From a virus, in the IMG/VR virus record IMGVR_UViG_3300017917_001342, positions 373,669 to 437,668 of that record: a DNA stretch of 64,000 nt, one strand, 5' to 3'. The stretch's first letter is position 1, and each line of letters opens with the position of its first letter. The position numbers were made by a program, and so were the translations under genes. Shown in pieces: positions 38,881 through 42,370 of this stretch. A model generated the notes under the pieces. It saw nothing but the letters and a program-made list of their open reading frames with translations, was not told the origin of the DNA and did not search any database.

Positions 38881-40716
38881 TTATATAAGAACACCGCTAT
38901 TATCATTGATAGCGTGTTTTAATGTTGAAGTTTGATTATCGATATTGGTATTGAGATTTTTTAATTCTGCAATCATTTTGCCTATATTAAGCAACATTTC
39001 TGACATTTGCTGATACGACATATCATGTGTATCTCTAAGTGTTGCTACTAATGTTTCTGTATTATCAGTCTGTGTTTTATTAATGTCTCCTGCGGGCGGT
39101 ATAGTTACTATAGATGATTCTATTGTAGGTGCAGCAGGTGCAACTGTTCTTGGTAATTCATAATTGATAGGCAAAATATAATCATTGAGATTAATAGGCA
39201 CTGGTTCAACGGCAGGTATGATGTAATCTCTTAGATCTATTTCTACTGGTACAACTGTTGGTATTACTTCAAATCCTTGATTAGTTGGAACAGCAGGTTC
39301 GTATTCAATTGGCTGTGGAGTAGTTTCAACTGGTGCAGGAGGTGCTGTTGTAGGTGTTACATCTTGTCTATCACGTGATGTAGCAGGCGGAGTTGGTGTT
39401 AAATTTGGCAATACATCAGTACCAAATGTGTCTTGTAATGATTTGTAAGCAGTGTTAAAGGCCGTGGTCAATATACCAGCCGAATTAGACATTTCTAATA
39501 GACCATTACTCAGTGGTATGAGTACATTGGTTTTTATTTCAGCCGCACCATCAGCTATTATTGCGATGTTGTCTTTGAAATTGTTAAATGCAGCAAGTGC
39601 ACCAATATCAATACTATTAGTAAGAGTATTAACACTGTTGTCAATTTTATTCATATTTTCGATAAAGTCTTTGGTTGCTTGATCGATTGGTGCCAATGGT
39701 TTGGTTATATCATCGGCCATCTGATTAGTAGCCTGAGTGATTGTACCTGCCATTTTTGCCCATGTTTCGTCCTGATATATTTGTAGTTCAGGACTAGCTG
39801 ATAATGTATCAGCAAGGGTTGTACTAAATTCGTCAAATTTTCTTACTTTTTCAGCAGGGTCAGTTTCAGATACAGCCGCTGCAAATTCGTCAAGTGTACC
39901 CGTGAGTGTTAACATTGTAGAAAAATCGTCACTTAGACCAGATATACCTAACGCAGCAAAACCTCTGGCTTCGTTAGTTAACAAATTAAATGCTTCACCT
40001 GTTCCGACATTAAATCTAGACAGTGCTCTAAAGGTTTCATTTAGATTTTCCTGTTGCGCTCTGCTCATTGTGGCATATAAAAATGCACTCTGTGCTTCTT
40101 CAGTTTTTGCTTTAATGCTAGCTGCTATTTGTTCAGTGCTTTTACCTGTTACTTGTGCTGCTTCATTGAGAGATTTTGTAAAACGTACAGAACTGTCGGC
40201 TAGCTCTTGTGTAGTGTAACGTTGTGTTGCACCTGTTAATGTTAAAATATCTAAATATTGCAGACCGCCATCTTGTAACTCTTCAAGGGTCAGACCAAAT
40301 GTAGCACCCTGTGAAGATAAGCGTTTAAGGCTCGCTGCAAATTCGGTTACTGTTGGTATTCCAAGTTTTGCAACAGTTGTCGAATGTTTAGTTAAAAGTT
40401 CTGTTAACTTTGGAAATGTAACACCAAATTCATCAGCAGTTTGTAGAATTTGATTAGAACTAATAACAATACCAGTTTTGTATAAGTCAGCTATGCTGTC
40501 AGTTGCTTGCTGAGCTCTATCACGAGCTTTTACAATTAAATCAACTGTAGCAGTCATTGCTATACCAAGGTTTTTAAAGCCAGAATCAAGACCCGAGAAA
40601 GTTGACAACATCGATGACGTAGTAGCACTGCCAACTTTACTTTCTGCTTTAAGACGCTTTGCGACTTCATCCTCGATAAATTTTTTCATCTCGGGGGTCA
40701 TGATAGGATCTGCCAT
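38881..40716 (-). CDS. Probable tail tape measure / baseplate hub protein (gp29 position)
   Basis: 611 residues, close to T4 gp29 (590). Largely helical with Ala/Thr/Leu-rich stretches (FEAAKD-like, LTKHSTTVAKLG, FAASLKRLSSQGATFG, RALSRFNVGTGEAF) like a tape measure; a Pro-rich linker at about 440-540 contains the peptide TSRDRQD (near 450) and two IxLxDYIxP repeats; the C-terminus is helical. It is divergent from the chaperone-like frameshift pair at 40777-41849, the usual neighbours of tape measure genes. The identification rests on length, composition and neighbourhood. Confidence 0.55.
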   Translation of the reverse strand: MADPIMTPEMKKFIEDEVAKRLKAESKVGSATTSSMLSTFSGLDSGFKNLGIAMTATVDLIVKARDRAQQATDSIADLYKTGIVISSNQILQTADEFGVTFPKLTELLTKHSTTVAKLGIPTVTEFAASLKRLSSQGATFGLTLEELQDGGLQYLDILTLTGATQRYTTQELADSSVRFTKSLNEAAQVTGKSTEQIAASIKAKTEEAQSAFLYATMSRAQQENLNETFRALSRFNVGTGEAFNLLTNEARGFAALGISGLSDDFSTMLTLTGTLDEFAAAVSETDPAEKVRKFDEFSTTLADTLSASPELQIYQDETWAKMAGTITQATNQMADDITKPLAPIDQATKDFIENMNKIDNSVNTLTNSIDIGALAAFNNFKDNIAIIADGAAEIKTNVLIPLSNGLLEMSNSAGILTTAFNTAYKSLQDTFGTDVLPNLTPTPPATSRDRQDVTPTTAPPAPVETTPQPIEYEPAVPTNQGFEVIPTVVPVEIDLRDYIIPAVEPVPINLNDYILPINYELPRTVAPAAPTIESSIVTIPPAGDINKTQTDNTETLVATLRDTHDMSYQQMSEMLLNIGKMIAELKNLNTNIDNQTSTLKHAINDNSGVLI

Positions 40717-40776: not shown

Positions 40777-41631
40777 ATGTCAGCTAATCCACTTCAACGG
40801 TATTTTCGCAGACCTGCATTATGGGTAAAATTACCAACACTAGGCAAATGGTACCAAAACAATGAAGTGCGTTACAATGAAAATTTCGAAGTACAGGTCT
40901 ATGGCATAACTGCAATAGACGAAATCTTAATCAATACACCCGACGCACTGTTTAATGGGCATGCATTAGAAAGCGTTATTAGAAGTTGTATACCAGAAGT
41001 ATATGACATTAAGAGTCTATTACAGCCAGACTTAGAAGCACTGTTTTTAGGAATCAAATCTGCATCAAGTAACGGAAAATATGAAATCACTAGGACTTGC
41101 AAAAAATGTACACATGAAAATACATTTGATTTAAATTGCAATCATCTTTTAGATAGCATGAGATATCTAGAAGATTCAGATGCTGTAGTCAATGTAGGTA
41201 ATGATATTAAGGTGCATGTAAAACCTTACGATTTCGACATGCGCAGTTTATTCATTAAACGACAACTAGAAGAAAGAAAAACTCTTTCATTAATAGAAAA
41301 TGACACAGAGATAGACGATAATTTATTGAAAGCTAGCAAATATGCAAAAAGCTTAGAAGAAATGACTAAATTGACATTTAGGTTGATGTCCGAGTCTATT
41401 GTTGCAGTAGAAATTCTAGGCAGAGATGCACAATACGTCACTGACAAAGACCATATATCAGAATGGATGTTAAATGTTAATAAGCAAACTGCTAGTTCAA
41501 TCATAGAGGCAGTTAATGCATTGAACGCATTAGGTCCCCAAAGGTCCACTACTGCTGTGTGTCAAAATTGCAGTCACACCTGGGAAGAAAGCCTTAATTT
41601 TGATCCAACTGTTTTTTTTACGCAACGATAA
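40777..41631 (+). CDS. gp26-like baseplate hub/tail assembly protein with split zinc site
   Basis: 284 residues. Two CxxC pairs, Cys108/Cys111 (TCKKCTHE) and Cys262/Cys265 (VCQNCSHTW), about 150 residues apart, likely form one zinc site. WVKLPTLGKWYQ at 16-27 and SLLQPDLEALFLGIK resemble the gp26 family of T4-like phages. The stop codon lies 10 bases after a T8 run (41612-41619) that allows a -1 frameshift into the following frame, giving a predicted second product of about 357 residues. GGAG eight bases before ATG 40777. Confidence 0.6.
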   Translation: MSANPLQRYFRRPALWVKLPTLGKWYQNNEVRYNENFEVQVYGITAIDEILINTPDALFNGHALESVIRSCIPEVYDIKSLLQPDLEALFLGIKSASSNGKYEITRTCKKCTHENTFDLNCNHLLDSMRYLEDSDAVVNVGNDIKVHVKPYDFDMRSLFIKRQLEERKTLSLIENDTEIDDNLLKASKYAKSLEEMTKLTFRLMSESIVAVEILGRDAQYVTDKDHISEWMLNVNKQTASSIIEAVNALNALGPQRSTTAVCQNCSHTWEESLNFDPTVFFTQR

Positions 41632-41677
41632 CAGACTCTGATGTAGAAAAAATAGATAACATGTTAAGACTGTTATC
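41612..41677 (+). promoter_or_regulatory. Predicted -1 ribosomal frameshift signal
   Basis: Zero-frame codons GTT TTT TTT ACG contain the canonical slippery heptamer T TTT TTT. Seven bases after the T run starts an 8-base-pair stem, GATAACAG (41627-41634) with CTGTTATC (41670-41677). The zero frame ends at TAA 41629-41631; the -1 frame is open from 41619 to 41849. Confidence 0.65.
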
Positions 41678-41849
41678 TAGCAATAGAGATGTTATCGAAA
41701 ATGACATTAACACATTGGTTTATTACATGAATGGCGGATTGGATTATAATGATGCCTGGTTACTGACATCTGATCAACGCAAGAACATGTATAATGTCAT
41801 TCAGAAACACTTCAATGCGATTAATCCTAAAAACAAGTCTATGTTATAA
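41661..41849 (+). CDS. Downstream frame of the gp26-like gene, expressed mainly by -1 frameshift
   Basis: 62 residues if started at ATG 41661, but no SD precedes that ATG (GATGTAGAAAAAATAGATAAC). The same frame is open back to the T8 run, so it is better read as the C-terminal 76 residues of a frameshift fusion. The segment YYMNGGLDYNDAWLLTSDQRKNMYNVI is like the C-terminal part of tail assembly chaperones (aromatic, W...LT...R..M). Ends just before a double terminator. Confidence 0.65.
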   Translation: MLRLLSSNRDVIENDINTLVYYMNGGLDYNDAWLLTSDQRKNMYNVIQKHFNAINPKNKSML

Positions 41850-41862
41850 TTCTATGTTTTGT

Positions 41863-41913
41863 GATGAGCTAAAGCTCATCAGTTATTTGATCTAAAGATC
41901 AAATAACATTTTT
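41863..41913 (+). terminator. Tandem hairpins, second one an intrinsic terminator
   Basis: First hairpin GATGAGC/TAAA/GCTCATC (41863-41880), second GTTATTTGATC/TAAA/GATCAAATAAC (41882-41907) followed by ATTTTT. Both have a TAAA loop. They end the gp26-like transcript. Confidence 0.88.
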
Positions 41914-41940: not shown

Positions 41941-42310
41941 GTATTTCTGGTCGAGTTTGGGATCATATCACTCCCTTACCCAGGGAGTAATAAGATTGTC
42001 TTTCTGGTTCGAATGACGACCTGCCCTTTCATCCTTGTTCTGCGTGAACAGCTGGCGGAGTACCTAATTCCAGCTTACAGATGTGATCCTCTGAGGAGTC
42101 TATACCTCAATACTCGGTTATGGGAGTTTACCCAAGCTACAGTAAGGTCAAACGGCCAGACCATTACTGCACTACAGAAAGCCAGTCAGACGGCTACTGT
42201 AGTCCTTTTTCTGATTTACTTGGCCAGGGCTTTGCAGTAGAATCCCTGTCAGTGAGTGTGATAACCTTGCCGTTATCCTTTCACTGGATGGAAAACACCA
42301 TCATTATGAA
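41941..42310 (+). other. Hairpin-rich gene-free region, candidate structured RNA
   Basis: In the 520 bases between 41850 and 42370 I find no convincing gene; two short overlapping frames have no SD and no protein-like composition. The DNA is noticeably less AT-rich than its surroundings and can fold into many local helices: 41970-41975/41983-41988, 42050-42055/42070-42075, 42092-42096/42105-42109, 42171-42177/42197-42203 (plus an inner AGCC/GGCT), and a nested pair 42250-42255/42281-42286 enclosing 42260-42265/42272-42277, then 42287-42291/42298-42302. A T5 run follows the fourth hairpin at 42206. Strand plus is inferred from that and the preceding terminator. No known RNA class was recognised. 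Confidence 0.35.
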
Positions 42311-42370
42311 GCCAATATACGCGAAAGTTTTAGTTAATGGGAAATAAAGCAGTGAATACTAAGTGAGATA

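Follow-up and report, generated by a model that had tools for sequence, protein, structure and literature searches.

The gp26-like gene at positions 40777–41631 (plus strand) of the window, i.e., the 64,000-nucleotide stretch of DNA analysed here, very probably undergoes a programmed −1 ribosomal frameshift near its 3′ end, yielding a short (TAC-N) and a long (TAC-NC) chaperone for the tape measure protein, like the G/GT pair of phage lambda. A preliminary description of the same DNA had proposed this G/GT-type mechanism, and the comparison with related phages strongly supports it, the slip site and the extension being present in 57/57 complete homologues. The window belongs to a larger IMG/VR virus record (518,643 bases, a 519-kb giant virus of bacteria) and encodes a T4-type portal protein beside the chaperone locus. 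A search of the entire record found no second copy of TAC-N or TAC-C.

Frameshifts of this kind are known from many tailed phages, and in the lambda type the two chaperone forms act on the tape measure. In the phage studied here, ribosomes translating the gp26-like gene would reach GTT TTT TTT near its 3′ end and, in a fraction of the passages, both tRNA-Phe would move back by one base along the U run, entering the −1 frame, a slip that a stem-loop starting 6 nt downstream may aid. The main product would be the 284-residue TAC-N, and the minor one the TAC-NC fusion, extended at its C terminus by a helical domain of about 76 residues. As in the lambda G/GT system, both forms may jointly coat or fold the tape measure protein and bring tail-tube subunits, and both would leave before the virion is complete.

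Slip site and reading frames of the chaperone gene

The zero frame (40777–41631) encodes a 284-aa protein of the gp26 (T4_baseplate) family of tail/hub assembly chaperones. It matches the Pfam profile PF12322 (T4_baseplate; E 2.7e-13, 50.6 bits against a cut-off of 24.5) and phrog_150 (baseplate hub; E 2.6e-17), significantly and over most of the protein. Single-sequence hhalign comparisons with T4 gp26 and gp51 were too weak to be informative, while the use of alignments on both sides gave a clear result for the N part: the match of the window family to the gp26 proteins of T4-like phages had a probability of 97.3% (E 2.3e-11). Furthermore, the AlphaFold2 model of TAC-N is confident (pLDDT 87) and, among the named matches in BFVD, it resembles gp26/baseplate hub proteins; a fold search against PDB gave no reliable match. 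As for kinship with lambda gpG, neither a PDB fold match nor a sequence match emerged, and such misses are not proof of absence. The N part also contains two invariant CxxC pairs, C108 and C111 (41098–41109) and C262 and C265 (41560–41571), which are consistent with the zinc binding proposed in the preliminary description.

The gene ends with the codons GTT TTT TTT ACG CAA CGA TAA. The run of eight T at 41612–41619 includes the heptamer T_TTT_TTT (41613–41619), which follows the X_XXY_YYZ pattern in the zero frame shortly before the short form ends. The zero-frame stop TAA (41629–41631) comes nine bases after the slip site; the heptamer had already been described as correctly phased, and the ten bases then given for the distance to the stop are right within counting convention. 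The −1 frame (TAC-C, 41619–41849, plus strand) begins with the codon TAC at 41619 and runs for 76 codons up to the TAA at 41847–41849, so that a frameshift would join the residues VFF of the short form to YATITDSDVEK... in the long product. As previously noted, this frame is open for 76 codons and its own ATG lacks a ribosome-binding site: the first ATG (41661) has no Shine-Dalgarno sequence (upstream sequence AGAAAAAATAGATAAC), and a start there would lose the first 16 conserved residues of the extension.

The motif T TTT TTY is common as such, even though its 27 matches in the window are fewer than the 55 expected by chance. Thus, the evidence lies in the position of the site and in its conservation.

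Conservation of the site and of the −1 extension

With tblastn, 61 phage records containing the gp26-like gene were identified, all of them distant (<60% identity); they include RaK2-like, 121Q-like, and GAP32-like jumbo phages, PA5oct, Atu_ph07, Phosso, SCTP-2, and XacN1. Searching for related loci with the gp26-like protein alone returned none, whereas the window portal gene used as query added 66 IMG/VR loci; a wide alignment showed no conserved stretch. Across all loci and the window, the profile of the gp26-like protein recovered 58 genes, 57 of which are complete, the sole exception being a gene whose ORF is truncated at the end of its contig. The 57 include near-identical copies, and 36 representatives were left at 70% protein identity.

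An in-frame T TTT TTC or T TTT TTT, located 3–42 nt before the zero-frame stop and followed by a homologous −1 extension of 71–82 residues, was present in every complete homologue from the related jumbo phages (RaK2, 121Q, GAP32, PA5oct, Atu_ph07, and the IMG/VR contigs). None of the 57 has lost the T run or has the two frames separated; the conservation of the T run and of both frames, which the preliminary description had named as a check, was therefore observed throughout. Among the 36 representatives (<70% identity), the codon preceding Phe-Phe always has T as third base, and the residues encoded at that position are of ten kinds (S, N, L, H, R, Y, V, D, T, and A). Given the codon usage of each gene, the naive log10 P is −19 for this third base and −9 for the first Phe codon, which is TTT in all 36; both values treat related sequences as independent, and kinship among the representatives makes them too extreme. 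A further in-frame T TTT TTY occurs only once in the 10,138 codons of the representatives' genes. On this comparative evidence, the conserved slip site is not a product of chance.

The relatives also bear on two explanations suggested by the eight-T run of the window. The first is that RNA polymerase slips on the run, producing mRNAs in the other frame. The second is that a single gene has decayed or was broken by a homopolymer error in the assembly, homopolymers being error-prone in sequencing. Nearly all the relatives have only T6C, with the same architecture and codon phase, and T6C is too short and interrupted for efficient transcriptional slippage; similarly, the split recurs with unchanged codon phase in independent genomes that come from many laboratories and hosts. 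As the T6C of the relatives lies in the same phase, we rejected both explanations, considering polymerase slippage highly improbable and an assembly error or decayed gene more improbable still.

Past the zero-frame stop, the nucleotide differences between close pairs were 301, 245, and 653 at positions 1, 2, and 3 of the −1-frame codons, a pattern indicating that the extension evolves as a translated protein. The extensions share the sequence FFR..LL...PE.I..., followed by [DS]Y.[ED]A..LS..[EQ]R. The AlphaFold2 model of TAC-C is helical (pLDDT 83), and a fold search with it against BFVD gave no match. The −1 frame is thus long, under protein-level selection, and devoid of an efficient start of its own. 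In PA5oct and PAC2, it contains no ATG, GTG, or TTG anywhere, and in the other phages most usable start codons come only after the conserved FFR..LL start. The comparison indicates that the shift is a necessity in relatives.

These observations are difficult to conciliate with the −1 frame being a small gene in its own right, whose translation would begin at its own start codon or by termination-reinitiation. Such a gene would be coherent with the TAATG at the zero-frame stop of 121Q and SD-6, with the ATGA in the same position in Phosso and Atu_ph07, with the separate ORFs annotated in most GenBank records, and with the Pseudomonas phage Cygsa01, which has TAATG and no perfect slip site and whose lineage may use a separate ORF. 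Yet the frame has no start codon in PA5oct and PAC2, the first ATG of the window lacks a Shine-Dalgarno sequence and drops the 16 conserved residues, and a separate gene fails to explain why T TTT TTY is kept in 57/57 homologues. We consider it improbable, and frameshifting remains by far the preferred explanation. In the jumbo-phage records examined, the long chaperone is missing or split in two, and its correct annotation can follow a simple rule: a gp26 homologue that ends with an in-frame T TTT TTY and is continued by a −1 extension.

Downstream RNA structures and the neighbouring gene

Structures downstream of slip sites are common, not universal, and one is found in the window. The 8-bp stem with a 7-nt spacer reported in the preliminary description does exist (GATAACAG, 41627–41634, with CTGTTATC, 41670–41677), but it is not the best fold. 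The minimum-energy fold (−24.7 kcal/mol, z −4.68, 0/200 shuffles as stable) pairs CGATAACA (41626–41633) with TGTTATCG (41690–41697), leaving a 6-nt spacer, and its inner hairpin uses the 3′ arm of the earlier stem. This putative stimulatory stem-loop spans 41626–41697 on the plus strand.

In 44 distinct sequences, the RNA downstream of the slip site had a mean z of −1.75 against −0.45 in control windows, and z was below −2 in 41% of them against 9.5% of the control windows. A helix starting 4–9 nt past the slip site was significant (p < 0.05) in 39% of the representatives (Fisher p 2e-10), and stems comparable to that of the window, with a 4–7-nt spacer, were present in about 39% of them. The helix arms vary while the spacer is nearly constant, as in Atu_ph07 (GGCTCTTTGT/ACAAAGAGCC), XacN1 (CCATCAAGTCC/GGACTTGATGG), and the locus L079 (GCCTCTTG/CAAGAGGC). 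No significant simple stem was found in several enterobacterial jumbo phages. With the site in 57/57 homologues and the stem in ~39%, the slip site is universal and the stimulator clade-specific.

Further downstream, the window contains a candidate new RNA family, a structured non-coding RNA of about 375 nt (41947–42320, plus strand), which as a finding looks newer than the frameshift. The region has 75–85% nucleotide identity to several relatives, against about 71% for the adjoining coding region, and its fold has a z of −4.66. The consensus comprises 83 pairs, 31 of which show double compensatory changes, compared with 15.1 (sd 2.5) in shuffles and at most 8 in slid controls. No Rfam match was found, even at E <= 1. 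A covariance model built on nine sequences retrieved six further full-length members (E 1e-23 to 1e-35) from related jumbo-phage contigs, each located just downstream of the chaperone gene and on its strand; in the genome of the window, the model found one copy. Between the chaperone stop and this RNA (41862–41910), two hairpins, TGATGAGC...GCTCATCA and GTTATTTGATCT/AGATCAAATAAC, the latter with a T-rich stretch after it, resemble a terminator or a processing site. At the same place after the chaperone, enterobacterial jumbo phages have about 0.8 kb without annotated genes (L003 4046–4883, L005 4043–4848, L010 4040–4809, L011 4043–4847, and L012 4043–4830). The structured-RNA model did not match in these five gaps, which could thus contain either another RNA or unannotated genes.

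On the other side of the chaperone gene, head to head with it on the minus strand, lies a gene for a 611-aa protein (38881–40716), which we presume to be the tape measure on the basis of its position, its virion homologue, and length scaling. In most relatives, the homologue is located between portal and TAC. In phage CBB, the homologue CBB_251 is an abundant virion protein (29 peptides) according to the available passages of the virion list, in which CBB_250 (the TAC-N homologue) and CBB_249 do not appear; CBB_250 is labelled as a structural protein in its GenBank record. Furthermore, the length of the homologue tracks that of the tail, at about 5.9 residues per nm both in CBB (720 residues, 123 nm tail) and in PA5oct (798 residues, 136 nm tail; PMC3936114). 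The 611-aa protein had no match to T4 gp29 by hhalign and no clear match in Pfam. The placement of the chaperone gene next to the tape measure, as first described, holds for the adjoining position; given the divergent transcription and the lack of sequence match to gp29, the identity of the neighbour stays presumptive.

T4-like phages and comparison with known systems

As the preliminary description had stated, the frameshift is not a recognised feature of T4. Gene 26 of T4, which precedes gene 25, has no slip site and ends with GAG TTC TTT GAG TTA CTA TAA. T TTT TTC with a −1 extension is also found in cyanophage Sf-FS3, Aeromonas phage phiAS5, and Rhizobium phage IC12, and in these T4-like phages the extension can be aligned to the C-terminal end of T4 gp51 and matches PHROG 634, "baseplate hub assembly catalyst". 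The remainder of T4 gp51 is a paralogue of gp26 (97.9% probability, E 4.6e-13). The jumbo-phage −1 domain shows a moderate similarity to this T4-like/gp51 C-terminal domain (46.6%, E 2e-4), with 35 columns colinear at the C terminus.

In the simplest reading of these similarities, T4 looks to encode the long form as a separate gene, gp51, which resembles a paralogue of gp26 with the same C-terminal domain already attached. We lean slightly towards T TTT TTY frameshifting being ancestral for the long tail chaperone in the T4 superfamily, kept by all the RaK2-like jumbo phages and swapped in T4 for a duplicated, pre-fused gp51. If true, this would account for the presence in T4 of two hub chaperones whose function has long been unclear. 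Both gp26 and gp51 appear as T4 hub assembly chaperones in PMC3004832. Their function becomes testable, as the ratio of the two forms in jumbo phages should be set by one slip site. The gp26 of the Pseudomonas phage Cygsa01 (L092 4297–4482) has the imperfect site C ATT TTC together with TAATG, perhaps an intermediate state between the frameshift and a separate gene.

The chaperone genes of T4-like phages have been described before as frameshifted (Vladimirov, Gautam and Davidson 2022), as far as the citing papers convey: PMC12846349 refers to that work for the known poly-T slip sites of T4-like TAC-N genes, and the PRFect paper cites it for some T4-like phages having a short and a fused long chaperone gene and no frameshifting. 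Our literature search, which covered Vladimirov et al. 2022 through these citing papers, found no report of the frameshift in RaK2-like jumbo phages. In the Pseudomonas phage Adele (Vandenendeviridae) and in Andersonviridae, a −1 frameshift of the TAC is likewise conserved, its motif being GTTTTT at the TAC-N end (PMC12846349), but these are different phage families and their TAC lies directly upstream of the tape measure. P1 PmgB, encoded next to the tape-measure gene sit, has been proposed to be a tape-measure chaperone (PMC9024508); TAC-N (40777–41631) matches it weakly in PHROG (E 0.004), which hints at a distant kinship of PmgB with gp26, the similarity to the window protein being too weak to claim homology.

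The window resembles lambda G/GT in its overlapping frames, which would yield a short and a long form, in the slippery heptamer close to where the short form ends, and in the location beside a tail gene. Xu, Hendrix and Duda (2004) reportedly treated the lambda pair along with further tail assembly chaperones made by −1 frameshifting. Conversely, the window protein belongs to a different family with conserved CxxC pairs, its slip site is T TTT TTY, and its presumed tape measure is divergent, whereas that of the lambda type lies directly downstream of the chaperone gene, an arrangement typical of the lambda type and not definitional for T4-like phages. With the T4-like chaperones (gp26/gp51, PF12322), the window shares a TAC-N of the gp26 family, and its extension moderately resembles the gp51 C terminus; T4 would obtain its long form from the separate gene gp51, without a slip site, whereas the window phage and its jumbo relatives very probably use one gene and a frameshift.
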